32,329 nucleotides of DNA from an uncultured Victivallaceae bacterium (GTDB taxonomy: Bacteria; Verrucomicrobiota; Lentisphaeria; Victivallales; Victivallaceae). The position numbers and the translations under genes were made by a program. Each line of letters opens with the position of its first letter. The first letter of the stretch is position 1. Location of the stretch: NCBI GenBank assembly GCA_944392655.1, contig CALXXL010000022.1, positions 1-32,329 of the forward strand, read 5' to 3'. The notes beneath the pieces were generated by a model. That model was not told where the DNA came from. It searched no databases and worked only from the letters and a program-made list of their open reading frames with translations. Below, one piece after another: positions 1 through 22,444 of this stretch.

Positions 1-430
1 GCTGGAGCTTGTAGAGTTTTTTGACAATGCTATATTTTCTTTCATTTTTTTATCCTTTAGTTTACGGCTGGAGCTTGTAGAGTTTTTTGACAATGCTATA
101 TTAGGATTGTTTACGGGGGTCTCTTTTTTGAGCTGGAGCTTGTAGAGTTTTTTGACAATGCTATATTTTATAAGGAGCTTGTTTATGAGTGCTAGTGGCT
201 GGAGCTTGTAGAGTTTTTTGACAATGCTATATTATTCTTAAGAGACATATATATTAGGTACATGCTGGAGCTTGTAGAGTTTTTTGACAATGCTATATTC
301 AAAGGGGCGTTGAAACGCCTGCATGATTTGCTGGAGCTTGTAGAGTTTTTTGACAATGCTATATTCTTGCCCAATAGCCTTATTTTCTTCTTTCGCTGGA
401 GCTTGTAGAGTTTTTTGACAATGCTATATT
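1..430 (+). CRISPR. Type II-C CRISPR array, 7 repeats and 6 spacers, open at the left edge
   Basis: Seven identical 36-nt repeats start at 1, 67, 132, 198, 264, 330 and 395. Each begins GCTGGAGCTTGTAGAG and ends GACAATGCTATATT. The six spacers (37-66, 103-131, 168-197, 234-263, 300-329, 366-394) are 29-30 nt, the usual length for type II. The first repeat starts at base 1, so the array probably continues outside the window. Orientation is set by two signs: the repeat 5' half pairs with the tracrRNA anti-repeat at 4833-4850, and the repeat 3' end carries an extended -10 box. Both give plus-strand crRNA transcription, convergent with the cas genes. No repeat is degenerate, so neither array end can be called as the old end. 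Spacer targets cannot be identified without a database search. Confidence 0.98.
403..430 (+). promoter_or_regulatory. Promoter inside each CRISPR repeat (example: last repeat)
   Basis: Repeat positions 31-36 read TATATT and are preceded by TGC, giving an extended -10 (TG-N-TATATT). TTGTAG at repeat positions 9-14 lies 16 nt upstream as a weak -35. The same element is present in all seven repeats. Transcription would start about 7 nt into the following spacer and leave roughly 23 nt of guide. Repeat-borne promoters of this form are known in Neisseria type II-C arrays, whose repeats end in a similar TG-C-TACAAT. Its activity here is inferred. Confidence 0.7.
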
Positions 431-827: not shown

Positions 828-1711
828 CAGCAAAAATCCAGCAGATTTTTATTTTGCGCAAAAGAGTTGGCCAGCTGACCGGCATGAATTGTCAGAAGAT
901 TCCCCAAATCCCGCCGGTTTTCATGCCAGACTATCTCCGCATTCAACAGTTCTGCAATAATCTCTCCACGCATATTGCGCGATAATTCATCAAGTAAAGC
1001 GTTATCCGGATTTATCCGCGCTACCGCACGGTCAACTATATAACGGTAAGGCTCCATAAGATCGTCCGCCAGACAATAAGCGTTATAACGGTTGTGATGG
1101 TGTATCCCAATAGTCGGGTGCAACCCGGCACCGCATAACGCACGGGCGGTCATCGCCCGCAATATCGCATAACCGTAATTCAGTAATATGTTATTATCCG
1201 GCATATCGCGATCCCGCAGAAATGGCGAGTTAAACAATTGTTTCCAGTAAAGCACTGCCGCCCTCCCCTCCAGATTCTCCGGATCTCCGGATTTCACCTT
1301 ATCGGCCAAATGAAAAAATTCATCCCCCACGCCGTGCAATTCCATGAGCAAATTACCCTGAGAGCGGATTTTTGCCGCTACCACCGATTGCCATAAGCGT
1401 TTATATAACGGCAACGGCGCTTCCGCCTGTGCCCGGAAACGCTCATTCTGCAAATAATGAGCAGATAATGGCAACTGCATCGCCACCGGCAGACATTTAT
1501 TGTTGGAGATAATCACCATCACTCCCGCTTCAGCCAGCTCCGCCAGCAATGCGCCGGTAACCGATACGGCCGACGTCCCGAGTATCAGACACTCGATATC
1601 ATTTACCGGAATCCGGTGTTCCCCACCGTCAGTCAGCATCAGCACCAGCAGATGGTTGTCCATACTCAGCCGGGCGCCGCGCTCCACCACCTCAATAACT
1701 CTTTTAGTCAT
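827..1711 (-). CDS. cas1: CRISPR-associated integrase Cas1, type II
   Basis: This 294-aa protein is the catalytic subunit of spacer acquisition. The N-terminal beta domain includes RGARLSMDNHLLVL, and a helical catalytic domain follows. The expected metal ligands are visible: E148 in ENLEGRAA, H204/H205 in GIHHHNRYNAY and E220 in DDLMEPYR. These positions are almost the same as those known for Streptococcus pyogenes Cas1. The length is typical for type II. The ATG overlaps the end of cas9 by 8 nt (ATGACTAA), so the two are probably translationally coupled. The neighbours are cas9 upstream and cas2 downstream, with no csn2 or cas4. That composition defines subtype II-C. Confidence 0.97.
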   Translation of the reverse strand: MTKRVIEVVERGARLSMDNHLLVLMLTDGGEHRIPVNDIECLILGTSAVSVTGALLAELAEAGVMVIISNNKCLPVAMQLPLSAHYLQNERFRAQAEAPLPLYKRLWQSVVAAKIRSQGNLLMELHGVGDEFFHLADKVKSGDPENLEGRAAVLYWKQLFNSPFLRDRDMPDNNILLNYGYAILRAMTARALCGAGLHPTIGIHHHNRYNAYCLADDLMEPYRYIVDRAVARINPDNALLDELSRNMRGEIIAELLNAEIVWHENRRDLGNLLTIHAGQLANSFAQNKNLLDFC

Positions 1712-4700
1712 TGGCGCGCCTTAATTCACCCAATGCCGTAGTAGTGAATTTTTCCATTTTTCCTTTAAATGCGGCTGATAAAGTAGGAGTAAACCATTTT
1801 TTAGCCGATTTCAATGCCTTTACATCTCTTGCCTCATAAACAGGCACACATTGAAATTGTGGAAGGGCAACCCCGCGGATAACGCATAACTGCTCTTCTC
1901 CGTCTTTTATCCACCGCACAATATCGCCTTTGCGCAGGGTGAATTTTAATGGATTGCCGTTCTTTTCCTTTGGATAAATGGCTTCGCCTTTAAGCATCCG
2001 CAAACGGGCATCCATAAGTGAAACGATTTCGCCAGTCCAGCCAGTCTCGTTGCCATCCTTATCCAAAACTGAGTAGATGGCTAAAACGTGATTCGCCCCA
2101 TTGGCAACTTCGCGCTGACCATCACCGGAGCCGATTGTCCGGGTACTTTGCGTCTGCAATACCCGTACCCGTTTTATTATATTGACAATATTACCGTTAC
2201 GGTCACGCAAAACCGGCAGGTTAGTCCCGCCTTTGAACGCTTTCTTGGGATCGGCAATCCCGAGATCGTCCAATTTCTCTTCCACCGCCTTGCGGATCGC
2301 ATCATCAACAATGTCTTTAACTTTATCAGCCTCCAGGTCCTCCAACGCCTTTCGGGCATGGCGGACATCGCCACCGTAAGATTTGCTGTAGATCGTCTCC
2401 TTATGCAATGCTCCGCGCAATTTGTTCACGGTATGATGCGAGATTCCGGCGGAGTCCAGCTTGGCTTTCGCCTGAGTATAAAGGTCTGTAACCACTAACG
2501 GCCGTTTTTCTTCTATCGCTCTACGCCTGTCCTCCCCCTTCAACCCCGCAATGAGCTTTACAATAGCAGGCGATGTGACCGCTATCGTTAATGCGTCTAT
2601 GGCATGGTGCCGGTGATCTCCACGCACTTTCTCACCCTCGCCCAGCAGATAGTTGCCGCCCCACGCCCGACGCACCACCGCGGTGCAGCCACCCGCACTG
2701 CATTGGATGCGTTGAACCCCGTTGCGGTCATTCCTGCCACCGTACAGCAGGGCAAGATACTCGGTTGCCAGTTTACTGGCGTAACGGGTATCGTTCAAAT
2801 TACGATTGATAAAATCCTGTACCTCCGCCGTTTCAAGCTCAAATTTTTCCAGCTTGATTTTGGCAAACGACCCTTTAAAATGACGCACCCGTTCGATTAT
2901 TTCAGCATATTTTGCAGAGTCAAATGCTTCAAAAGGCAACTTGTCACTTTTAGCCATGTTGGCATCACGGTAGCTCAGGGTCTTATTGGCGTAGGAGTCA
3001 TCCATTGAACGGGAGTACGGAACAATATGCTCTATGTGGATTTCACCGCCATGCAACAGCTGATTTAAAGAAAAACTTTTACCAGTATAAGGACAAGTGT
3101 AGTCGCACTCTTCCGCCAGCATAACTTTTAAAATATCACGCGGCGAAGGATTCTCTATCCCCGCCTCCCGGGCAATCTTTTCCGCAATTTTTTTACGCTC
3201 TTTCTCCCGCTCACTATTTTTACGGCTTATATTCTCACGATCCTTACTGCTGTTCTTTAAATCACGCGCCAGCTCCACCCGGATCAAATCAGGTTTGCCA
3301 TATTTGCGGATTACCGCATTGACCACCCGGCGCAATTCGCTCAACGTACGCTGTACTATCGGATTGCGGATATCCAGATCAACTTCTTCCAACCGCGGCA
3401 GAACCGGCTCAACCACATCCGATGGCTGATACTGCTCCGGATATTTCAGTTTTATAATCGTATTCAACGCTATTCCAGCTTCCATATCCGGCAACAGATT
3501 TTCTATCGCCTTACGCGAATAATTGCAATAATCATCCGGCAGAACAATGTGGCTGAGTTCCTCAGCCGTCTCTTCATTGAAATGCCACTTCTCCATTAAG
3601 ATTTTCCGCATTACAGCGTTGTTTTCTACCGAATTAAGCGTGTTCAGAAATATATTACGCTCGGCTTCACTCAATTCAACCGCCTTATCGCCAAATGCAC
3701 GGAACAGAATTGCATTCAATTCGTTGCCGCATATATCTTTATCATCATCTCCAAGCGTGAACTTTTCTCCTTTGTCCAAGCCAACGAGCTTACCAAGCTT
3801 GGATAGCGCTATGCGACCTTTGCTGTTTAAATGGCCACTTAAACCATCCAGCACCACAAGAGCATTTTCCCGCTCGTCCTCTGTAAGCTCTCTTATCACA
3901 CCTGACTTATTGCTTACCTTCAGATTATTGACCCCCTGAACCAGCCGGAAACGCTGTGCCGCCATAGTAGAATAAGAACAGCGCTTTTTATCCGGCTCCA
4001 ACCGGCAGTTACCGATAAGATGTTTACAGCTCCTCAGCTTACGCTGGAAAAATATGGCGTGATGTAACTCCGCTTCTACCTCCACGCTGATAATATGCCG
4101 CTGAGCCACACAGATTTTATGAAATTCATCCTCAAACATTCCACGCTCAGTATAACGGGTGCGGATTCTGCTCTCTTCCGGATCAAGCATGGAAAAGTAT
4201 TCTCCTAATGTACGAGCCCCGGAATCTGCCATCGCCTGCTTAAGATCGGCAATCCCGGAAAGCACTTTTCCCGATTCTGAATCTTTAGCCTCCTGCTTGC
4301 GGTTGCTCTTATACCCACGACGCTGCGCCAGTTGATACAAAGCACGCCCCAGCTGATATCTATCCAACGGACGATCCAACGCCAGAGAACGCAGAAGATA
4401 TGGCACCACATGAGCCGCTCTTTTGCGCTCATTTTCCGGCAGTGTCAACAGAAAATCACGGTCAACCTTAACAAAAAACTCCGGAGTAAGTTTTTCCGGC
4501 AACATCCCTTCCCGCATTAAAATTGCAGTAACCTCCTCTTTATGTCTGCGCCGACGCTGATACATACGCCTCAAAGAACGTTTCTGCCGACGCACCGAAC
4601 AACGAGACTCCCCTTTCCCGGCACGTATCTCGTCTTCAGTGGCATCAACCCCAGGCTCAAAGATCCGGCTACCCCAATCAATAAGTTCTATCCTGTTAGT

Positions 4701-4772
4701 ATTATCATCATCTATCACTGCCCAACCAACAGAGCTGATACCCAAATCCAGTCCCAATACTCTCTGTTTCAT
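1704..4772 (-). CDS. cas9: Cas9 RNA-guided DNA endonuclease, compact type II-C
   Basis: This 1022-aa effector cleaves DNA matched by crRNA paired with tracrRNA. RuvC-I is LGLDLGISSVGWAVI with catalytic D9. The arginine-rich bridge helix follows (RRQKRSLRRMYQRRRRH, about residues 61-77). RuvC-II holds E500 in RVELARDLK. The HNH domain includes CPYTGKSF and IEHIVPYSRS with catalytic H582, then NKTLSY. RuvC-III holds HHAID with D726. All nuclease residues are present, so the enzyme should be active. The C-terminal 250 or so residues would form the wedge and PAM-interacting domain; the PAM cannot be read from sequence. At 1022 aa it is in the small II-C class (Neisseria Cas9 is 1082 aa). The ATG has a GAGG ribosome site 6 nt upstream. 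It is the first gene of the cas operon. Confidence 0.98.
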   Translation of the reverse strand: MKQRVLGLDLGISSVGWAVIDDDNTNRIELIDWGSRIFEPGVDATEDEIRAGKGESRCSVRRQKRSLRRMYQRRRRHKEEVTAILMREGMLPEKLTPEFFVKVDRDFLLTLPENERKRAAHVVPYLLRSLALDRPLDRYQLGRALYQLAQRRGYKSNRKQEAKDSESGKVLSGIADLKQAMADSGARTLGEYFSMLDPEESRIRTRYTERGMFEDEFHKICVAQRHIISVEVEAELHHAIFFQRKLRSCKHLIGNCRLEPDKKRCSYSTMAAQRFRLVQGVNNLKVSNKSGVIRELTEDERENALVVLDGLSGHLNSKGRIALSKLGKLVGLDKGEKFTLGDDDKDICGNELNAILFRAFGDKAVELSEAERNIFLNTLNSVENNAVMRKILMEKWHFNEETAEELSHIVLPDDYCNYSRKAIENLLPDMEAGIALNTIIKLKYPEQYQPSDVVEPVLPRLEEVDLDIRNPIVQRTLSELRRVVNAVIRKYGKPDLIRVELARDLKNSSKDRENISRKNSEREKERKKIAEKIAREAGIENPSPRDILKVMLAEECDYTCPYTGKSFSLNQLLHGGEIHIEHIVPYSRSMDDSYANKTLSYRDANMAKSDKLPFEAFDSAKYAEIIERVRHFKGSFAKIKLEKFELETAEVQDFINRNLNDTRYASKLATEYLALLYGGRNDRNGVQRIQCSAGGCTAVVRRAWGGNYLLGEGEKVRGDHRHHAIDALTIAVTSPAIVKLIAGLKGEDRRRAIEEKRPLVVTDLYTQAKAKLDSAGISHHTVNKLRGALHKETIYSKSYGGDVRHARKALEDLEADKVKDIVDDAIRKAVEEKLDDLGIADPKKAFKGGTNLPVLRDRNGNIVNIIKRVRVLQTQSTRTIGSGDGQREVANGANHVLAIYSVLDKDGNETGWTGEIVSLMDARLRMLKGEAIYPKEKNGNPLKFTLRKGDIVRWIKDGEEQLCVIRGVALPQFQCVPVYEARDVKALKSAKKWFTPTLSAAFKGKMEKFTTTALGELRRAND

Positions 4773-4798: not shown

Positions 4799-4826
4799 TT
4801 GCAAAATGTTAAATACATATTATTGT
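4799..4826 (+). promoter_or_regulatory. Predicted tracrRNA promoter
   Basis: TTGCAA (4799-4804), a 16-nt spacer and TATTGT (4821-4826) point into the tracrRNA. The predicted start is near 4833, the first base of the strong anti-repeat. It overlaps the predicted minus-strand cas9 promoter, so the two could compete for RNA polymerase. The AT-rich setting makes chance matches likely. Confidence 0.4.
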
Positions 4827-4842
4827 TTTAATAACTCTACAA
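4814..4842 (-). promoter_or_regulatory. Predicted cas9 operon promoter inside the tracrRNA anti-repeat
   Basis: On the minus strand TTGTAG (4842-4837), a 17-nt spacer and TATGTA (4819-4814) face cas9, with a start expected near 4807 and a leader of about 35 nt carrying the GAGG site. The geometry closely follows the promoter in each CRISPR repeat (TTGTAG, 16 nt, TATATT). Both boxes are weak matches to consensus and there is no extended TG, so this is a moderate prediction. Confidence 0.4.
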
Positions 4843-4914
4843 GTTCTGGTAAAGAACTTTCGCAGGCTACTTCCCGCGGGAAGTCCTCATAGCGGCTTCA
4901 ATAGCCGCTTTTTT
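4815..4914 (+). ncRNA. tracrRNA of the type II-C system
   Basis: Bases 4833-4850 (AACTCTACAAGTTCTGGT) pair along their whole length with the first 18 nt of the CRISPR repeat, with only G-U wobbles as imperfections. A weaker match, with one insertion, continues back to about 4815, covering the full 36-nt repeat in inverted orientation. Downstream lies a hairpin, ACTTCC-CGCG-GGAAGT (4869-4884), which can extend through AGG/CCT (4864-4866, 4885-4887) past a 2-nt bulge. An intrinsic terminator follows, AGCGGCT/AGCCGCT (4891-4909), then a T-run. The RNA is divergent from cas9 and leads towards the DXS-like gene. Mature ends are not known; a start near 4833 would give about 80 nt. Confidence 0.9.
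4891..4914 (+). terminator. Intrinsic terminator of the tracrRNA
   Basis: A 7-bp stem, AGCGGCT (4891-4897) with AGCCGCT (4903-4909), closes a 5-nt loop and is followed by a run of T. It also serves as the final hairpin of the tracrRNA. Confidence 0.85.
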
Positions 4915-5079
4915 ATTTTATATACAAATATCTTACTGATCAGAATTATAGCACAATATATTTTATTTTACAAATGAACCCATTCCATATTATATTATTA
5001 TTATTTATTTTTATCTATTAATATAAAACTGCATTTTATATAGCTTATACACACTATGAATTTCCAGATTTTCTCCATA
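4915..5079. other. AT-rich spacer between tracrRNA and the DXS-like gene
   Basis: About 165 bases of very AT-rich sequence. I see no reading frame with a ribosome site, no RNA gene and no clear repeat. It probably just insulates the tracrRNA terminator from the downstream promoter. Confidence 0.5.
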
Positions 5080-5132: not shown

Positions 5133-6890
5133 ATGTATATTGAAAATATTAAATCACCTCAAGATGTTAAACGCCTTAATTACGAACAACTGAACTCCAT
5201 GTGCGACGAACTGCGCAATGCTCTACTGGAAAAACTGAGCGCCCACGGCGGACATATCGCCCCCAACCTGGGATTTCTGGAGGCTACCGTCGCACTGCAC
5301 TATGTATTTAATTCACCCGTTGATAAATTTGTCTTCGACGTATCTCACCAGTGCTACGTTCATAAAATGCTTACCGGACGTATGGAGGCGTTTACCAATC
5401 CAGAAAAATATGACCTCGTTTCCGGATATACTGAACCATCCGAAAGCGAACACGATCTGTTTATTGTCGGACACACTTCAACCTCTGTAAGTCTGGCATG
5501 CGGCGTCGCTAAAGCACGCGATTTGAAAGGCGGAAATTATAACGTTATCGCCGTTATCGGAGACGGTTCCCTCTCCGGTGGCGAAGCATATGAAGGCCTT
5601 AATAATGCCGCTGAGGCCGGAACCAATATGATCATAGTCGTCAACGATAACCAGATGTCTATCGCCGAAAACCACGGCGGACTGTATCAGAACCTTAAAC
5701 TGCTCCGGGAAACCAATGGCAAGGCAGAATGCAACTTCTTTAAATCCATGGGGTTCGATTATGTTTATCTCAATGACGGCAATGACGTTGAAAAACTTAT
5801 CGCTACTTTCAAATCCGTAAAAGATACCAAACATCCTGTCGTTGTACACATCAATACCTTGAAAGGGCATGGATATAAGTTTGCCGAACAGGATAAAGAG
5901 ACTTTCCACTGGGGAATGCCATTCGATCTCGCTACCGGTAAACCTAAAGTAAGTTATGACGGCGAAAATTATTCCGATTTAACCGCTGAATATCTGCTCA
6001 GCGAAATGAAGAAATATCCGGAAATCGTCGGCATCACCGCAGGGACACCAACCGTATTCGGATTCACTCCGGAACGACGGAAAAAGGCAGGAAAACAGTT
6101 CGTCGATGTTGGTATCGCCGAAGAACATGCCGTCGCCCTCGCCTCCGGCATCGCCACCAATGGAGGAAAACCGGTGTTCGGCGTATTCAGTACTTTTATT
6201 CAACGCGCATATGACCAGCTCTCTCAGGATCTCGCCATCAATAACAGCCCTGCCGTAATCCTCGTATTCTTCGGCTCGCTTACCTCGATGAACGACGTTA
6301 CTCATTTGTGCTTCTTCGATATTCCTTTAATTTGCAATATACCAAATATCGTATATCTCGCCCCAACCTCAAAAGAAGAGTACTTCGCTATGCTTAACTG
6401 GAGTATGCGACAGAATGAGCACCCCGTAGCCATACGCGTGCCGGTAAACGGAGTCATTGCCAGCCATAATCCGGTGGATTCCGATTACTCCGATTTGAAC
6501 CGGTATCAAATCAATAAAAAAGGCAGCAAGGTCGCTATTATCGCCCTCGGCAGTTTCTACGAACTGGGTGAAAAAACCGTGGATGTGTTACACAAAAAAT
6601 ACGGCATTGATGCAACCCTGATCAACCCGCGTTATATATCCGGAATTGATTCAGAGATGCTCGATTCTCTGAAACACGACCATAAACTCGTTATCACGCT
6701 GGAGGATGGAGTGCTTGACGGCGGATTCGGTGAGAAAATTACCCGATTCTATGGCAACTCAGATATGAAAGTCCTTAACTTCGGCGGTAAAAAAGAGTTC
6801 GTTGACCGCTTTGATATCGACGAATTTATCCGGAAAAACCATCTGACAGCAGAGCTGATCGCTGAAGATGTAATGAATGCTTTAAAATAA
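5133..6890 (+). CDS. dxs: 1-deoxy-D-xylulose-5-phosphate synthase-like thiamine enzyme
   Basis: DXS condenses pyruvate and glyceraldehyde 3-phosphate to start the MEP isoprenoid pathway and feeds thiamine and pyridoxal synthesis. This 585-aa protein has the full fold: an N-terminal thiamine-diphosphate domain with GGHI (H41), GDGSLSGG (143-150) and NDNQMSIA (171-178), then the pyrimidine domain with GIAEEHAVALASG (E330 as catalytic glutamate), and a C-terminal domain with TLEDGVLDGGFG. It is shorter than classical DXS (about 620 aa). The usual DGxTHQ segment reads NDVTHLCFFDIP, as in a shorter DXS-like subfamily common in gut anaerobes. It is a single-gene unit with its own promoter and terminator. 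ispF at 14837 shows that the MEP route is present. It could be a paralogue with another substrate. Confidence 0.85.
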   Translation: MYIENIKSPQDVKRLNYEQLNSMCDELRNALLEKLSAHGGHIAPNLGFLEATVALHYVFNSPVDKFVFDVSHQCYVHKMLTGRMEAFTNPEKYDLVSGYTEPSESEHDLFIVGHTSTSVSLACGVAKARDLKGGNYNVIAVIGDGSLSGGEAYEGLNNAAEAGTNMIIVVNDNQMSIAENHGGLYQNLKLLRETNGKAECNFFKSMGFDYVYLNDGNDVEKLIATFKSVKDTKHPVVVHINTLKGHGYKFAEQDKETFHWGMPFDLATGKPKVSYDGENYSDLTAEYLLSEMKKYPEIVGITAGTPTVFGFTPERRKKAGKQFVDVGIAEEHAVALASGIATNGGKPVFGVFSTFIQRAYDQLSQDLAINNSPAVILVFFGSLTSMNDVTHLCFFDIPLICNIPNIVYLAPTSKEEYFAMLNWSMRQNEHPVAIRVPVNGVIASHNPVDSDYSDLNRYQINKKGSKVAIIALGSFYELGEKTVDVLHKKYGIDATLINPRYISGIDSEMLDSLKHDHKLVITLEDGVLDGGFGEKITRFYGNSDMKVLNFGGKKEFVDRFDIDEFIRKNHLTAELIAEDVMNALK

Positions 6891-8254: not shown

Positions 8255-9073
8255 CTATATATTCCTGTGCTCAAAGAAAACAATAAATTTCCTGAAGTGA
8301 TTCCGCCAGTAGCCGGACGGAATACCCATTACAACCGATGCCAATGCCAGCATTGCAAAAAATCCACCCAAGAAAAACAGCAAACGCAAAACTGCCGTAC
8401 GCCAGAAACTACGATCATACCATACCTGCAAAACAAGATAACACGGCATTATCAGCAGAAGTTCAAAAGATTCCTGACGGTTCAGCACCATCAATGCCGC
8501 TGTAAGACCGGAAGCTCCCCACCCCCAGGATCGCTCACGCACTTCAGCATAAATTATTCCCCAGAAAAAATAGGCCAACAGCATAACATAGATACCGTCG
8601 CGCTCAATCAGCGCCGCCATCCGGATAGCGTATGGGTGGGTGGCCGCAAGCGTCATCAAAAGCAGACCGGCTCCATTGCTGTTACGCCACAGCAGACGCC
8701 CGATAAAAAAGAATGGAATTACAAACAATACCCCCGCAACAACCGCAACAATTTTACCTGAGGTAATAACATCAAGCCCGGTACGGGCGATACTTTGTGT
8801 CAGAAAAAGCAGTAACGGCGGCACAGTCATCGATTCGTCGCTGTATACTGCGGAAAATCCACCGGACAACCAGCGCTCCGCCGCCTCTACATAGACGATT
8901 TCATCCCGCTCAAGCAACTGAACCTCAATCACCCGTATCCAGCGCAGAGCACCACTCAAAATGATTAATATGGCAAACAGTATCGCGGTTTTCTTAAACG
9001 AAAAATTAAAACCAACGCCGATACGTTCAAGTTTCGGTTTCAGCCAATCGAAGATTTTTGTCAGCCTATACAT
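8255..9073 (-). CDS. N-terminal part of a split GT39/PMT-type glycosyltransferase
   Basis: This 272-aa membrane protein has the hallmark of dolichyl/undecaprenyl-phosphate-sugar transferases: an acidic pair in the first periplasmic loop (D57-E58 in LLERDEIVYVEAAERW) after the first membrane helix (about 28-48). More helices follow near 105-125, 132-150, 160-178, 190-215 and 225-250. Such enzymes move a sugar from a polyprenyl phosphate to an acceptor outside the inner membrane. The frame ends at a TAG (8257-8255) in the middle of the expected membrane domain, and continues in the same frame as the next 437-aa gene. The ATG overlaps the end of the polymerase/ligase gene as ATGTATAG, so it belongs to the polysaccharide operon. 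The split may be a mutation, an assembly error or real. Confidence 0.75.
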   Translation of the reverse strand: MYRLTKIFDWLKPKLERIGVGFNFSFKKTAILFAILIILSGALRWIRVIEVQLLERDEIVYVEAAERWLSGGFSAVYSDESMTVPPLLLFLTQSIARTGLDVITSGKIVAVVAGVLFVIPFFFIGRLLWRNSNGAGLLLMTLAATHPYAIRMAALIERDGIYVMLLAYFFWGIIYAEVRERSWGWGASGLTAALMVLNRQESFELLLIMPCYLVLQVWYDRSFWRTAVLRLLFFLGGFFAMLALASVVMGIPSGYWRNHFRKFIVFFEHRNI

Positions 9074-10301
9074 CGCTTATCGGGGATTTTTGAATCGGAA
9101 GCGTCTCGGTATGTGACTCTACTGCCGGCATCGACTCCCGGGCAAGACGGTGCAGGCGGAACGCCGCACCCGCGGCAAACCACCATAACTGCCAGCTTAT
9201 ACCCAGAAAAATCGGCGCAGGTTCAAATAACGAAGCAACAAAACCGGAAATAAGTACCGCAGGAATCCAGTAATAATCCGGTCTGGAAAATATCAGTCTC
9301 CAGCTCTTCAACACCATCATTACAATTATAATCATGCAGATTATGAAAAATACCACCCATACCCCGCACTCAATAAACAGCTTCAGCCAAGTATTATGGA
9401 AGTCATATATCAACCCCATGGTCTCATGCGCTACCAACCCGAACCCGAGAAACGCCATGTTCGGAAATATATTGTCTATAAAAAACATATACTGATCTAT
9501 ACGGCCGGAGGTAATGTCTCGCGCGTACAACCGGAAAAATTCCCCGAACCGCAGGATAATACGCCGGGTTAATGTGATGATCAGCAACATGAACAGCGCC
9601 GGATAAAACTTCTGCTTTGAAACTATGATCACCGTAACCGCTACCAGAACCACCGTGGATACAATCCCCCCGCGACCGCCGCTAAGCAGCTGCAATACCA
9701 GCAAAGGCAGCAGCAGTAACCCCAGACGCACATAATCTTTGACCTGACGGAGCGTTCCGGCAAGAATAAACGTTAAACCGGCTATCTGCGCAATACTTAC
9801 CGACCAGCCGGTTCGACCGAACGCAAATCCGGTCTCATTCAGATCAGGAATACCATCCAGCGTGTCCGGGTAGATGTCAAGATAAATATCCATCGGTATC
9901 TGCCACTGCGGGAAACCCCATATCGCATGAGTGAAAATCGGCAGACAGTAGATAATCAACAGCCAGTATACCCACTTCAGAAAATCATAACTCTCTTCAT
10001 AGTTAATACCGGCAACGAAAAATATATAGGCGATCACCAGCGACAGACTGGTCTGCTGCATAACCATCGCCGTGGTGTGGTTGCCGTGATACATCGCTAT
10101 CCCGGCATAACTCAGGGTCATAAACAAAAACACCAGGTGATATACAAACATCTTCGGCGCAAGAAAATTCTTGATATTGAACAATATCACTATGAAAAGA
10201 AACAGATTCTTGACCGCCATCACCTTCCCGAACGGACCATACCACAATATCGGAGACAGGGCAAAGGTTAAAAGCAGCGATATATTATAAAAATTCAACA
10301 T
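9066..10301 (-). CDS. O-antigen polymerase/ligase family membrane protein (Wzy/WaaL type)
   Basis: A protein of 411 aa with about ten to twelve membrane helices. It has the features of the Wzy_C family: a periplasmic loop with SGGRGG followed by helices, and DFHNTWLKLFIECG near residue 310, the usual H-N-x-W-L stretch. Members either polymerise undecaprenyl-linked repeat units or ligate the finished chain to lipid A core. The two cannot be separated here. Its place between a flippase, a glycosyltransferase and a GT39-type gene favours a polysaccharide assembly role. A TTG three codons upstream is also open, but it abuts the GAGAGG site, so the ATG at 10301 (9 nt spacing) is chosen. It stops with TAG. 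Confidence 0.8.
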   Translation of the reverse strand: MLNFYNISLLLTFALSPILWYGPFGKVMAVKNLFLFIVILFNIKNFLAPKMFVYHLVFLFMTLSYAGIAMYHGNHTTAMVMQQTSLSLVIAYIFFVAGINYEESYDFLKWVYWLLIIYCLPIFTHAIWGFPQWQIPMDIYLDIYPDTLDGIPDLNETGFAFGRTGWSVSIAQIAGLTFILAGTLRQVKDYVRLGLLLLPLLVLQLLSGGRGGIVSTVVLVAVTVIIVSKQKFYPALFMLLIITLTRRIILRFGEFFRLYARDITSGRIDQYMFFIDNIFPNMAFLGFGLVAHETMGLIYDFHNTWLKLFIECGVWVVFFIICMIIIVMMVLKSWRLIFSRPDYYWIPAVLISGFVASLFEPAPIFLGISWQLWWFAAGAAFRLHRLARESMPAVESHTETLPIQKSPISDV

Positions 10302-10328
10302 CCAATCCAACCTCTCAAAATCAAATCT

Positions 10329-11465
10329 CTACTCCGCACCCAGCTCCGCACAGATCTTCTTTACCGTTTCAAAATTATTACAGGAATTAAAGAATTTTTC
10401 CGCATTGTTCCGCAATTTATCATAATCCGCATCAATTTTCAACAGAATATCTTTGATTTCTCCGGACGAAATGGAGGAAAAGTTCAAACACACTCCGCAA
10501 CCGCTACGCTCTATCGTATATTTCAGCCCGAGGACATCACTCCCGATCATCGGCAGCCCGAAACCGGAGTATTCCCAAATCTTGTTCGGCGCACAGAACT
10601 CCGTATTCAACGAATGATGCTCATACGTCACCGCACCGATATAAGCATGAGAGGTAACCGATAAATGATCCGGCGCAGGAAGATACGGTATATGTATGAA
10701 ATTGCGGTATCTACTTTTATAAGGCTCCAATTCACGCGCGTACTCATTATGACACTGCACCGCAAAATACCACGGTGCCCCAAGACTCTCCACCGCTTCC
10801 AGCAATGGTTCAAGATTGCGCTCCCTGCCCATTATACCCTGGTAAAGTATCAATTTTGCATTATCCGGCAAAGAATCCAGAATTGTTTGTATCTCTTCAC
10901 TCTTAACCGCCATCTTCGACTGGCGCGGATGATAACTCGGCTTGTTCGGCAGAATCTCCGGCGTCTCCCGTAAATTGAACCACGCACGGAATATGTGCGC
11001 ACGCCCCTCTTCCGGCACCACCACCTTCATCGCACCAGGCATCAGATGACTCAAAGCCTTACGGTAACGCTCGTGCTGCGGCAGATCATACAGCTCCTGC
11101 ACCTGCAATACATAACGGTAATTACTTAATTCCGATTCCCCCAGCGCCATCGCAGCATCAGCACTGCCCAGCCACAGATAATCAGGATTACTCCGTTTTA
11201 TATAACTCAAAGCCATCCGGCGGAAATGCCGCCATATCCGGAGCTTCTCCAGTTTGCCGGGGACAGGCAGCTTGTGCGGCACTCCGGTTAGAAATACTTC
11301 AACCCCACTATGTTCAAAACGGTCACGCGTTGCCTGATTCATCGTCACCGCAACAATCCCGAGCTCAATTTCCGGTATTGATGACAGATGTTCGCAGACC
11401 GATAAAATGGGCGGACGGCGATTCAGGTCATCCTTTATCACTAAAATTATTTTTATTTTTCTCAT
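10329..11465 (-). CDS. GT-B fold glycosyltransferase (GT1/GT4-like)
   Basis: This 378-aa soluble protein has the two-domain outline of GT-B glycosyltransferases. The N-terminal Rossmann half starts MRKIKIILVIKDDLNRRPP. The C-terminal half contains LILYQGIMGRERNLEPLLEAVESL and the nucleotide-sugar site region APNKIWEYSGFGLPMIGSD (about 295-313), which closely resembles GT4 enzymes. It would add a sugar to the lipid-linked repeat unit on the cytoplasmic face. Donor and acceptor cannot be predicted. It lies between the flippase (62 nt gap) and the polymerase/ligase gene (27 nt gap). The ATG at 11465 has only a weak purine-rich ribosome site. Confidence 0.8.
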   Translation of the reverse strand: MRKIKIILVIKDDLNRRPPILSVCEHLSSIPEIELGIVAVTMNQATRDRFEHSGVEVFLTGVPHKLPVPGKLEKLRIWRHFRRMALSYIKRSNPDYLWLGSADAAMALGESELSNYRYVLQVQELYDLPQHERYRKALSHLMPGAMKVVVPEEGRAHIFRAWFNLRETPEILPNKPSYHPRQSKMAVKSEEIQTILDSLPDNAKLILYQGIMGRERNLEPLLEAVESLGAPWYFAVQCHNEYARELEPYKSRYRNFIHIPYLPAPDHLSVTSHAYIGAVTYEHHSLNTEFCAPNKIWEYSGFGLPMIGSDVLGLKYTIERSGCGVCLNFSSISSGEIKDILLKIDADYDKLRNNAEKFFNSCNNFETVKKICAELGAE

Positions 11466-11527
11466 ACTGTCAACTTTTCCACTATTAAGTTGGAAATATA
11501 TACCTGAAGCTGCCGTTCGTCAATACC

Positions 11528-12895
11528 CTAAACCGCTTTTTTACATTTATCTTTACGGATTAGCCACGCCAGATAAAATGACTGCAAAACCGTATGTATC
11601 AGATAACTCAGCAATATCGCCGCTGCCGCCCCCCTGGCTCCAAGCCCGCGCTGCAGAAAAAGATAACACAACCCCAGAGCAACCACACCCCATAATAAGT
11701 TGAAGCCAAAGCCAATCCACATCTTCGACTGACTCGCTATCGCCAGACCAACCACAGATGCAATCGAGGTGAATATTGTCGATAACGCCAGCAGAATCAA
11801 TGGCATAGGTTCAAGAAAATCTCTGCCGTACAGCAGCATTATATTTTTACTGAGACCTATGACTATTGCACTCAGAAATACTGTTACTCCGGCATTCATC
11901 ATAACATTTATTAAAAGTACCCTGGTATAGGTACCGATCTCTCCCTTGCTCCGGATGTTGGATAATATCGGCAGCGCTATACGCGACATCGCTGACGGAA
12001 TAAAAAGTATCATCGTTTTCCACTGATCCGCCGCACCGTATACACCAACTTCACCAAAACCGTCAAATTTGGCCAGCATCATTTTTATCCCTAAAAATAC
12101 CGGCATCACCATCAATGTCGAAAGCATGGCCGGCAGACTGAACTGGTGGATTATCTTGAAATCATCCCGGCTGACACGCGTCCAACGCGGCACTATATTC
12201 TCACGCCGCAAATTAGTACGAATCGCCAACGCATTGGCCAGCGTCCATACCAGAAAACCAACCCCGTAACCAAGTATCGCACCGGTAATCCCCCAAAGAC
12301 GGGCCCCGATTATAATCATTACTCCTTCAACTATTCCGGTAATTATCGAGTTTACCGCCACCATCCTGAAATTTTCAAAGCCAGACAGTACACCCGTTTG
12401 AATTCCGCTCAAGGTACTGAAGAAGAGCCAGAGCCCACCCCAACGGATGCAATCGGTAAGATCCGGCGCCGATACCTTCTCCGCAATAAATGGAGCCACC
12501 AATATAACCACAAAAGCCAGCAATGCACCCATTATACCGCCGGACCAGCCGGAAATTACATAGATACCCGCCGCACGCTCTTTTTGCGTCTCACGGTATT
12601 CTGAGATATATTTGGCCGCAGTGTTGCCCATCCCCATCGCGCCAAGCACAACAAAGATATTGATGGTGTTCTGCACCAGATTGAGTTTACCGAAATTCTC
12701 TTTGCCCAGTATCTTGGCGCATACCATCAATGCTACAAGAATACACAGATACTGCACCGCTGAACCGGCAATCGACCAGAACGCCCCGCCGGATAAACGT
12801 TTGCCTATTCCACTCAGCAGCATACTCTCCAACCGCTGACGCACATGCTCAGGCAGCAACGGTAATAATTTTTTCAGCAGCAGTTCCAAATTCAC
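11528..12895 (-). CDS. wzx: Polysaccharide flippase (Wzx/MATE-like)
   Basis: A polytopic membrane protein of up to 455 aa with about twelve to fourteen helices. It starts from GAFWSIAGSAVQYLCILVALMVC, followed by the family-typical AKILGKENFGKLNLVQNTINIF and GMGNTAAKYISEYR. It should flip undecaprenyl-linked repeat units to the periplasm for the Wzy-type protein. The longest frame starts at a GTG (12895) that lies directly on GAGGGG, too close for a ribosome site. A TTG at 12889 or the ATG at 12823 (GGAG just upstream) may be the real start, so the first 24 residues are uncertain. A possible structured RNA with a T-run precedes it. Confidence 0.85.
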   Translation of the reverse strand: MNLELLLKKLLPLLPEHVRQRLESMLLSGIGKRLSGGAFWSIAGSAVQYLCILVALMVCAKILGKENFGKLNLVQNTINIFVVLGAMGMGNTAAKYISEYRETQKERAAGIYVISGWSGGIMGALLAFVVILVAPFIAEKVSAPDLTDCIRWGGLWLFFSTLSGIQTGVLSGFENFRMVAVNSIITGIVEGVMIIIGARLWGITGAILGYGVGFLVWTLANALAIRTNLRRENIVPRWTRVSRDDFKIIHQFSLPAMLSTLMVMPVFLGIKMMLAKFDGFGEVGVYGAADQWKTMILFIPSAMSRIALPILSNIRSKGEIGTYTRVLLINVMMNAGVTVFLSAIVIGLSKNIMLLYGRDFLEPMPLILLALSTIFTSIASVVGLAIASQSKMWIGFGFNLLWGVVALGLCYLFLQRGLGARGAAAAILLSYLIHTVLQSFYLAWLIRKDKCKKAV

Positions 12896-12900
12896 CCCTC

Positions 12901-12970
12901 AAAAAAAATTCAAGATGCGGCCGATACCGGAAGATATATCCCGCTCCCGGAGTAATCTAAAGACCGCATC
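12901..12970 (-). promoter_or_regulatory. Possible attenuator or structured leader before the flippase
   Basis: On the minus strand GGATGCGG (12971-12964) pairs with CCGCATC (12920-12914, plus a closing G-U), enclosing 43 nt that can form two small hairpins (CTC/GAG and GATA/TATC). Five bases later comes a run of eight T's (12908-12901), then GAGGGG before the flippase start. The outer stem plus T-run resembles an intrinsic terminator or attenuator inside the operon. No known riboswitch class is recognised. Confidence 0.35.
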
Positions 12971-12987
12971 CAGATAAAATCAGCTCT

Positions 12988-14193
12988 CTATTTCGCCAGC
13001 ACACCACAGAAGTCCAGCAGCACTTTGTCATCCGTCACCGGCAGTGTCTTGAACTCTTTATGCGCCACCAGATAAACTACTATGTCCGCCTTATCAAAGG
13101 CGGTTTGATAATCGGTAAGATTAAATACCTTGTGAGTAGCTACGTTCGGCTCCACTATCAGAATTTCACAACTGCCGGAGTACTGCAATACGCGGCTTAC
13201 CACATATTTCGCCGGAGATTCACGCAGATCGTCTATGTCCGGCTTGAACGCCAGTCCCATCATCGCTACCACCGGACCGCGCCCATTCTTTACCTGAAAA
13301 TCGGTTATCGCACGCACCACCTTTTCCGCACACCAGAACGATTTGTAATTGTTCACCTCACGCGCCTGAGCAATCAAACGCGACTCCATCGGAAAATCAG
13401 ACGTGATAAAGTACGGGTCTACCGCAATACAGTGCCCCCCTACCCCGCAACCGGGTTTCAGTATATTCACCCGCGGATGCTTGTTGGCCAGACGGATCAG
13501 CTCCCAGACGTTGATCCCAGCCTTGTCACATATAAATGACAACTCGTTGGCAAAGGCAATCTGCACGTCACGCGAGGCATTCTCCGTAAGTTTGCACATC
13601 TCCGCCGTCTTCGCATCTGTCTTATGCAGTTCACCCTGCACAAAGTGCGCATAAAATTCCGCCGCCTTAACCGTCGACTCCGGCGTCATCCCACCGATAA
13701 CCCGGTCGTTATGCACAAGCTCGTAGACCGTGTTCCCCGGCAGAACCCGCTCCGGACAGTAGGCCATATAAAGTTTGCCCTCAAGATCGGGGCGCTCACT
13801 GTAAATAAGATGCGCCATAAGCTCCGTCGTTCCCACCGGAGAAGTAGACTCTATCACATAAAGATCACCCGCTTTCAAATATGGCAGAAGACTGCGGGTG
13901 GCGGCCTCTACAAACGAAATGTCAGGCTCATGATTGTTCTTGAACGGCGTGGGAACCACGATAAAATAGGCATCACTCACCTCCGGGGTCAGCGACGCAC
14001 GCAGCTTGCCGCTATTTACCGCCTCGCGGCACAACTCCTCCAGCCCCGGCTCTACTATGTGGATCTTACCCTGATTTACCGATTCCACCACCTTTTCATT
14101 TATATCCACCCCGACAATATCCACCCCGTGACGGGCGGCAATTATCGCAGTCGGCAATCCAATATAGCCAAGACCGACAAAACAAGCTTTCAT
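12988..14193 (-). CDS. wecC: UDP-N-acetyl-D-mannosamine dehydrogenase (WecC-like)
   Basis: This 401-aa enzyme of the UDP-glucose/GDP-mannose dehydrogenase family oxidises UDP-ManNAc, or a related UDP-sugar, to the uronic acid with 2 NAD+. The N-terminal NAD domain begins MKACFVGLGYIGLPTA. VESTSPVGTT-type residues appear as YVIESTSPVGTT. The catalytic cysteine lies in CGVGGHCIAVDPYF (second cysteine, about C255). NKHPRVNILKPG just before it is typical of WecC rather than Ugd. The partner epimerase WecB is not in the window. A TTG two codons upstream is open, but the ATG at 14193 has AGGGAAA at good spacing. It is the first gene of the polysaccharide operon, which suggests a ManNAcA-containing polymer. 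Confidence 0.9.
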   Translation of the reverse strand: MKACFVGLGYIGLPTAIIAARHGVDIVGVDINEKVVESVNQGKIHIVEPGLEELCREAVNSGKLRASLTPEVSDAYFIVVPTPFKNNHEPDISFVEAATRSLLPYLKAGDLYVIESTSPVGTTELMAHLIYSERPDLEGKLYMAYCPERVLPGNTVYELVHNDRVIGGMTPESTVKAAEFYAHFVQGELHKTDAKTAEMCKLTENASRDVQIAFANELSFICDKAGINVWELIRLANKHPRVNILKPGCGVGGHCIAVDPYFITSDFPMESRLIAQAREVNNYKSFWCAEKVVRAITDFQVKNGRGPVVAMMGLAFKPDIDDLRESPAKYVVSRVLQYSGSCEILIVEPNVATHKVFNLTDYQTAFDKADIVVYLVAHKEFKTLPVTDDKVLLDFCGVLAK

Positions 14194-14241
14194 TATCAAC
14201 TTTCCCTTATATATAAAAGCGGTTGCATTTTTTATCCTATT

Positions 14242-20743: not shown

Positions 20744-22444
20744 ATGAATGAAAAAAAATTATCACGACTGCTGCCGATTGTATTCTTTATCTGCGTATAT
20801 ATTATCCCGCTCGCATGGCGCCCAATGATTACACCGGATGAGTTCCGTTACGGCGAAATTCCACGCACCATGCTGCATACCGGTGAGTTCATCTCCCCAC
20901 ATCTGCTCAATGTACGCTACTTTGAAAAACCGGTGTTCGGATACTATATGACCGCAGCAACGATGGCTGTTTTCGGCGAAAACGCCTTTGCGGTAAGGTT
21001 GCCAAGTGCATTGTCGGTGGGGTTGACTGCATTGCTCATCTTCTGGCTGGTCAAAAAGATCTTCGACGATGAACCTCTGGCCTCCCTCGCCACCATGCTG
21101 TATATGACCTGCGGAATGGTTTTCGGCATCGGAACCTTTGCCGTACTCGACAGCCAGACAACTTTGTTTGTAACAGGTACCATTATCCCATTTTATCTCG
21201 CTCTCCAGGCAACTTCTAAAAAAAGCTGGGTAGCCTTGCTCGCTCTGGCCGGCGTATCATGCGGACTCGCATTCCTCACCAAAGGATTTCTCGCATTCGC
21301 TGTGCCGGCTCTGACTATTGTACCTTATCTTATATGGAGTAAAAAATTCAAGTCATTCCTGACTACTCCATGGATTCCGCTTGTCTGCATACTTATTGTG
21401 GTACTCCCATGGGCAATTGCAATTCACATCAAAGAACCGAAATTCTGGCACTATTTCTTCTGGATCGAGCATATCCAGAGATTTACCACTGAAAGCGAAG
21501 GACAGCACGCTGAACCATTCTGGTTCCTCATTCCTCCCATGCTGGGAGGGATATTCCCCGGAGCACTGGTGGCCCTCGGTGCATTTATCACGCTGAAAAT
21601 GAAGTTCAAGACGATGCTTAAGGACGACTTCTGCCGTTTTCTGATATGTTACCTCGTTCTGCCTTTTATCTTTTTCTCCGCATCTACCGGTAAACTGGCT
21701 ACCTACATACTCCCGTGCTTCCCACCGGCTGCTATACTGCTGGCAATTGGACTCAAAAAATATATCGAAGACAACCGGCAACATAAGACGCTGGATTGGA
21801 CTTTGATTATACTGCCATGGGTTCTGATTGCCGGAGCCGCCGGATTTACCATAGTTCAGATATTAATGTATTTTGACCTGATTCCTACCCTGTTCACCAA
21901 AAATGAATGGTATAAGTGGGTGATCGCAGGAGTTGCGGTCATCTTCTGGTGCTGGATGATTCTGAAAAACCGCAACGCAGATGTAAAAAAGAAGATTATT
22001 GCATTCTTTGCCGGCATGATCCCTGTCCTGATGGCCGGGCAGATGGCATTCCCGGAACACGTCCTGCATGGAAAAATTCAGGAGGCTCCCCTGCAGCGAC
22101 TGACCGCATATATACCGGAAAATTCCCAGATTTTAGTTCAACACAACGTTATGCATGCAGTAAGCTGGGTGACTCAACGCGATGACCTCGACTTCTTCCT
22201 TACCGCCGGAGAACTCAATCACAGCATTCAGGAGGATTATCCGGATGAGTACGGCGAACGGCTGTACGGCCTGGGACAATTCCGCAAATGGGTCAAATCC
22301 CCAGAAAGAACCCGGCCGCTGGTTGTGATATGCCGGATCCGTAAAGAGAAATTCGACAAAGACTACAACCACTATTTCAAAGACGTGGAAGAGTATATAA
22401 AAGCTCAATATTACGACGAAGAAATATATATGGTCGTATTCTGA
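20744..22444 (+). CDS. ArnT-like lipid-linked glycosyltransferase (GT83)
   Basis: A 566-aa inner-membrane enzyme of the ArnT/PMT superfamily. ArnT moves 4-amino-4-deoxy-arabinose from undecaprenyl phosphate to lipid A. The acidic pair D32-E33 in PMITPDEFRYGEIPRTM and YFEKPVFGYY (near residue 65) match ArnT strongly. About a dozen helices follow up to residue 445, then a soluble C-terminal domain. The real sugar could differ, since no arn biosynthesis genes are seen. It follows lolD by 32 nt with AGGAG 11 nt upstream of the ATG, so it probably shares the lol transcript and an envelope role. Its stop codon directly abuts that of the convergent AmpG-like gene. Confidence 0.87.
   Translation: MNEKKLSRLLPIVFFICVYIIPLAWRPMITPDEFRYGEIPRTMLHTGEFISPHLLNVRYFEKPVFGYYMTAATMAVFGENAFAVRLPSALSVGLTALLIFWLVKKIFDDEPLASLATMLYMTCGMVFGIGTFAVLDSQTTLFVTGTIIPFYLALQATSKKSWVALLALAGVSCGLAFLTKGFLAFAVPALTIVPYLIWSKKFKSFLTTPWIPLVCILIVVLPWAIAIHIKEPKFWHYFFWIEHIQRFTTESEGQHAEPFWFLIPPMLGGIFPGALVALGAFITLKMKFKTMLKDDFCRFLICYLVLPFIFFSASTGKLATYILPCFPPAAILLAIGLKKYIEDNRQHKTLDWTLIILPWVLIAGAAGFTIVQILMYFDLIPTLFTKNEWYKWVIAGVAVIFWCWMILKNRNADVKKKIIAFFAGMIPVLMAGQMAFPEHVLHGKIQEAPLQRLTAYIPENSQILVQHNVMHAVSWVTQRDDLDFFLTAGELNHSIQEDYPDEYGERLYGLGQFRKWVKSPERTRPLVVICRIRKEKFDKDYNHYFKDVEEYIKAQYYDEEIYMVVF

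Follow-up and report, generated by a model that had tools for sequence, protein, structure and literature searches.

Repeat-borne promoters are established in type II-C CRISPR arrays of Campylobacter jejuni, and Neisseria meningitidis is also named in this respect (PMC3656092). In II-A systems, tracr-L represses Pcas (PMC11417352), and scaRNA is a repeat-like RNA that acts on genes (PMC6199352, PMC13431127). The matching of Cas9 to tracrRNA supply in II-C systems is little studied. The N. meningitidis II-C system with repeat-borne crRNA promoters was reportedly described by Zhang et al. in 2013.

Here we analysed a stretch of 32,329 nucleotides (hereafter the window), which contains a type II-C CRISPR-Cas9 locus of an uncultured Lentisphaeria/Victivallaceae-like bacterium. 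Positions refer to the window. Promoters are given as -35 box, spacer length and -10 box.

Organization of the locus

The array (1-428, plus strand) contains seven copies of the 36-nt repeat GCTGGAGCTTGTAGAGTTTTTTGACAATGCTATATT and is truncated by the contig start. The interval between array and cas2 is without further gene. Genes cas2 (480-833; NCBIfam TIGR01573), type II cas1 (827-1711; NCBIfam TIGR03639) and cas9 (1704-4772; TIGR01865, 637 bits) are all located on the minus strand. This set of cas9, cas1 and cas2 only, with type II Cas1 and Nme-like Cas9, is that of II-C systems, as is the presence of a tracrRNA with repeat-complementary anti-repeat and terminator. The II-C Cas9 is 1022 aa long. 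Its nearest solved structures, retrieved by phmmer from PDB, are Cas9 chains of 1082-1092 aa, presumably of the N. meningitidis type. Close Cas9 relatives are 52-69% identical; the majority belong to uncultured Lentisphaeria and Victivallaceae from the gut of animals or humans. Viral contigs contained no Cas9 relative, and plasmid Cas9 matches (below 60% identity) were left out of comparison. Rfam at gathering thresholds gave no match in the window.

The divergent neighbour upstream of cas9 is dxs (5133-6890, plus strand); read-through from dxs into cas9 was ruled out, since dxs points the opposite way. Genes for surface polysaccharides and glycosyltransferases (PMT-like, Wzy-like, Polysacc_synt, UDP-glucose dehydrogenase) are found near the CRISPR locus, at 8255-14199 and 20744-22444.

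Like repeats of the C. jejuni and N. meningitidis type, the window repeat carries a promoter, TTGTAG-16-TATATT (score 8.9), which faces each spacer. That of the last repeat (393-428) points towards the 3' end of cas2, and transcription from it would enter this gene in antisense orientation. Repeats of four related loci (L039-L042) end with TTGATT instead of TATATT, and the repeat promoter looks lost (score 1.5 versus 8.9); these arrays may need another promoter.

The tracrRNA gene

The anti-repeat (4833-4850, plus strand; AACTCTACAAGTTCTGGT) pairs with repeat nucleotides 1-18 at all 18 positions, by 14 Watson-Crick and 4 G-U pairs. This stretch had been noticed in an earlier, sequence-only reading of the locus, as had the tracrRNA promoter TTGCAA-16-TATTGT, and both were confirmed at their places. 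The promoter spans 4799-4826 on the plus strand (-35 box at 4799-4804, -10 box at 4821-4826), with predicted +1 at about 4833, the first nucleotide of the anti-repeat. Its score in the window is weak (5.9-7.2), yet its position is conserved in relatives: the aligned sites are TTGCAA-16-TATTAT in L023 and L024 and TTGAAA-17-TATTAT in L025, and the register of the -10 box is conserved across loci with partial anti-repeat. The tracrRNA body with its hairpins occupies 4833-4917 on the plus strand (fold z = -3.76 for 4830-4917) and leads into an intrinsic terminator at 4891-4919 of the same strand, made up of a stem-loop (4891-4909) and T-run. Alignment reveals that the terminator is nearly identical in L023-L025 and that the tracrRNA gene as a whole is nearly invariant. 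The anti-repeat of the window appears to end at 18 nt because the tracrRNA is predicted to start there, the remainder being promoter.

Promoters facing cas9

The sequence-only reading had assigned a second function to the same bases. In its account, one degraded inverted repeat may provide the anti-repeat and, on the minus strand, a cas9 promoter TTGTAG-17-TATGTA (4842-4814). We ranked all 234 cas9-facing positions in the 260 nt before cas9 with a generic sigma70 matrix of E. coli type, promoters of Lentisphaeria being unstudied. The literal boxes are in place, but as a promoter the site scores only 0.8-0.9 and ranks 20th of 234. An independent consensus scan of the window does not list it. 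Equivalent sites in relatives rank between 2nd and 53rd and first in none. We therefore judge the match at 4814-4842 to be due to chance.

The relic itself was also examined. Beyond the 18 paired nucleotides, the distal part of the repeat had been reported to match at 13 of 19 positions with one insertion. This does not exceed chance level: the gapped score of 2.0 is equalled by 17% of shuffles of the same bases (P 0.17), 122 of 680 20-mers from the same AT-rich intergenic region score as well, and the match is absent from L023 and L025 despite identical repeat. The distal match was rejected as a true relic in the window.

Could the remnant (4814-4842, minus strand) nevertheless be the working cas9 promoter and exclude the tracrRNA promoter? 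Apart from the literal boxes, this idea gains from distant II-C loci, where full-length inverted repeats bear good cas9-facing promoters (TTGACA-17-TACAGT in L068, TTGACA-17-TACATT in L074, TTGACA-17-TATATT in L114). Set against it are the low rank of the window site, a -10 box that matches the consensus at 3 of 6 positions, the chance level of the distal match and the availability of a better conserved site at 4973-4945 of the minus strand. Moreover, L023-L025 retain the tracrRNA-facing boxes but not the cas9-facing -10 box, although the anti-repeat is kept, an outcome that the sequence-only reading had itself named as contrary to its proposal. We consider this possibility very unlikely, though a promoter derived from the repeat, albeit weak, could still contribute to cas9 expression.

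A cas9 start upstream of the tracrRNA terminator, the other observation named as contrary, is indicated as well. The top cas9-facing site of the window, TTGTAA-17-TGCTATAAT (minus strand, 4973-4945), lies beyond this terminator and is also listed by the independent consensus scan. By itself it is marginal (p = 0.057; the region has 26% GC). The top site is found at the same place in all four members of the clade, i.e. the window and its three nearest relatives, L023-L025, with p of 0.010 in L023, 0.033 in L024 and 0.020 in L025; the members are related and these p-values are not independent. The relatives' sites are TTGCGA-17-TATTCT (L023), TTGCGA-17-TATTTT (L024) and TTGCAA-17-TATTAT (L025), and TGC precedes each -10 box. 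In the alignment of the four loci, these boxes (TTG..A, then TGCTAT) form a conserved island amid diverged flanks, adjoining the tracrRNA gene. Loci L046, L047 and L048 are the same as L023, L025 and L024, respectively. A consensus scan of 361 bp of L047 yielded exactly two promoters, that of tracrRNA and the upstream cas9-facing one. Upstream neighbours differ between the loci, divergent dxs being found in the window and tRNA-Gly on the cas9 strand in L046-L048. Since the block is kept despite the different neighbours, it travels with the tracrRNA-cas9 unit.

We propose that in the window clade cas9 is most likely transcribed from this extended -10 promoter of sigma70 type (TTGTAA-17-TATAAT with TGC; 4945-4973, minus strand). 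With predicted start at about 4938, transcription would proceed antisense through the tracrRNA gene into cas9. The resulting cas9 5' leader of approximately 165 nt would hold the complete tracrRNA antisense, including an 18-nt sense repeat-like stretch. A shared promoter would then not be what links cas9 and tracrRNA expression; instead, the link would be convergent transcription and possibly pairing of tracrRNA with the leader.

An alternative is that cas9 is driven by a non-sigma70 promoter, or by a weak site within the 71 nt that separate the anti-repeat core from ATG, with the upstream block serving another transcript, e.g. a stand-alone antisense RNA to tracrRNA. Two points would suit such a scenario: transcripts from the block have some 165 nt to run before the cas9 start codon, with the tracrRNA gene in their way, and most other Lentisphaeria have the cas9 promoter between anti-repeat and cas9. 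On the other hand, only 41 nt separate the projected repeat end from ATG, and the best site there is weak (1.2 in the local-composition model); the sole minus-strand terminator-like match (4878-4861) is likewise weak, its T stretch being interrupted. We regard this alternative as unlikely, albeit less so than a working promoter in the remnant. A cas9 promoter within the 41 nt itself was rejected on the score of 1.2. With a different background and a wider stretch, TTAACA-17-TAAAAA scores 6.1; its -10 box adjoins the ribosome-binding site.

Taken together, the explanation that we find best, and probable as a whole, is that the bases singled out by the sequence-only reading represent the tracrRNA promoter together with the initial 18 nt of the gene, that the tracrRNA start has moved inward, and that cas9 is driven from beyond the tracrRNA terminator. 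That reading had further proposed that the two overlapping promoters exclude each other, which would balance Cas9 against tracrRNA. Because the remnant's -10 box is lost in L023-L025 and the best cas9-facing site lies beyond the terminator, such exclusion is not likely in the window.

Comparison of related loci

The comparison set comprises 47 loci in which an anti-repeat lies upstream of cas9. In 22 of them (full-length class), the match of the anti-repeat covers the entire inverted repeat or the distal part of it, with a score of at least 18; these loci come from Planctomycetota, Acidobacteria, Zixiibacteriota, Synergistaceae and other taxa. The other 25, among which are the window and every Lentisphaeria locus placed, show a strong match in the proximal part alone or have a distal part that is clearly degraded. 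Predicted tracrRNA starts, derived from the best tracrRNA-facing promoter, fall at repeat position 35-39 (37±2, the repeat's end) in 21 of 22 full-length loci and at position 16-19 in 24 of 25 others.

The Cas9 tree separates the two classes. Partial loci form one main clade (99*) with one stray, L102; the window groups with L023-L025 (support 100) inside the partial clade, and full-length loci lie outside. The full-length state would be ancestral, on a rooting with one long branch (L110). L102 has, some 530-670 nt before cas9 and outside the array, a single repeat-like copy in one orientation and, near it, a full-length copy that is inverted.

Outgroup loci retain a full-length inverted repeat between tracrRNA and cas9, the promoter of which faces cas9 head-on to the tracrRNA promoter. 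When four zones were compared, the inverted repeat ranked first among cas9-facing promoters in 10 of 22 full-length loci versus none of 25 others (Fisher p = 0.00012, related loci not being independent), and another zone outscored it in the remaining 12 full-length loci. The inverted-repeat promoter is strong in L068, L069, L074 and L114 (p <=0.005, maximum over 260 nt) and fair in L104 (0.065). Consensus scans of L068 and L074 list exactly two promoters, one per strand, belonging to tracrRNA and to the inverted repeat; in L114 these are the top two. Conservation of the boxes does not prove promoter use, because pairing with the repeat would keep the same bases.

By predicted positions, the repeat -10 box of full-length loci lies at 31-36 and the tracrRNA +1 at 37, and the cas9-side +1 falls at about 43, on the edge of the tracrRNA -10 box (43-46). 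As far as this geometry can tell, two open complexes could not coexist on such a repeat. In L069, L086, L089, L092, L096, L104, L114 and similar loci, the tracrRNA -35 box CTTGACA (TGTCAAGG on the cas9 strand) lies on or beside the cas9 ribosome-binding site, 9-15 nt before the start codon, and one short stretch may serve both.

Judged from these outgroups, the ancestor probably possessed a single complete inverted repeat in the tracrRNA/cas9 interval, all of it anti-repeat, with its own promoter facing cas9. In the Lentisphaeria lineage, predicted starts suggest that the tracrRNA start moved inward from the end of the repeat to the middle, a shift of roughly 19 nt. The distal half, no longer transcribed, would then have turned into promoter sequence for tracrRNA, and its cas9-facing -10 box would have been lost. 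The proposal that one inverted repeat gave rise to both anti-repeat and cas9 promoter is therefore sustained for the likely ancestor of the tracrRNA/cas9 spacer, outgroups having kept the full-length repeat, but not for the remnant as a present cas9 promoter. As a mechanism, it is unlikely in the window and plausible in distant relatives.

A broader model can be put forward tentatively, and we would rate it as possible rather than probable. In many II-C systems outside Lentisphaeria, the inverted repeat encoding the anti-repeat might also be the cas9 promoter, placed head-on with that of tracrRNA. Each start would coincide with the -10 box of the opposing promoter, so that the two could not be open at once, which would set the balance of Cas9 and tracrRNA. 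The window lineage would have lost this arrangement through the 19-nt inward shift and rewired cas9 to a site beyond the tracrRNA gene.

Most Lentisphaeria loci with longer gaps (L028-L042) have their best cas9-facing promoter between anti-repeat and cas9, the -10 box commonly lying 44-51 nt before ATG (e.g. TTGACA-17-TATATT in L035). Exceptions to this pattern are L027 and L038, and L026 fits only via a weak site. In L028-L042, 65-120 nt before cas9, the -35 boxes of tracrRNA and cas9 abut back to back on opposite strands (e.g. GTCAAATTGCAT, TCAAGTTGACA), a divergent arrangement in which polymerase footprints would overlap. In L033 (G039:C16), the anti-repeat and its promoter side are present twice in tandem, with cores at 352 and 115 nt before cas9, as though by a duplication of the tracrRNA unit.

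Should the comparative pattern hold, tracrRNA anti-repeat and cas9 promoter would share a simple origin in an inverted repeat, and the tracrRNA start, with its two states at the end or in the middle of the repeat, would predict where cas9 transcription starts in uncultured lineages. In the window clade, the predicted cas9 mRNA would bear the full antisense of its own tracrRNA, which is directly testable.

Comparison with known systems

In the open-access papers searched we found no report of an inverted repeat as cas9 promoter or of overlapping tracrRNA and cas9 promoters; absence elsewhere is not thereby proven. The window shares with C. jejuni and N. meningitidis II-C systems the gene set cas9-cas1-cas2, a repeat of 36 nt with a -10 box at its 3' end that is directed at the spacer, and a tracrRNA with anti-repeat. 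It differs from them in that its tracrRNA lies upstream of cas9 and is divergent from it, and its relatives hold an extra inverted copy of the repeat promoter facing cas9.

The nearest known cases of a tracrRNA region or repeat-like RNA acting on genes are tracr-L and scaRNAs, and neither fits the arrangement of the window. As with tracr-L, a tracrRNA locus would control the neighbouring cas promoter. However, tracr-L is a long tracrRNA with a 5' guide matching Pcas beside a PAM and directs Cas9 to this promoter, whereas the predicted window tracrRNA starts at the anti-repeat and the proposed coupling consists in transcription across the tracrRNA gene. Shared with scaRNA is an element of repeat-like RNA that lies close to cas9, not in the array, and can pair with tracrRNA. 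Of scaRNA features, the minus strand of the window displays a promoter-like site and, as terminator, only the weak match at 4878-4861, upstream of the repeat-like stretch. Unlike scaRNA, this stretch would reside in the cas9 mRNA leader, antisense to tracrRNA itself and without a strong terminator of its own.
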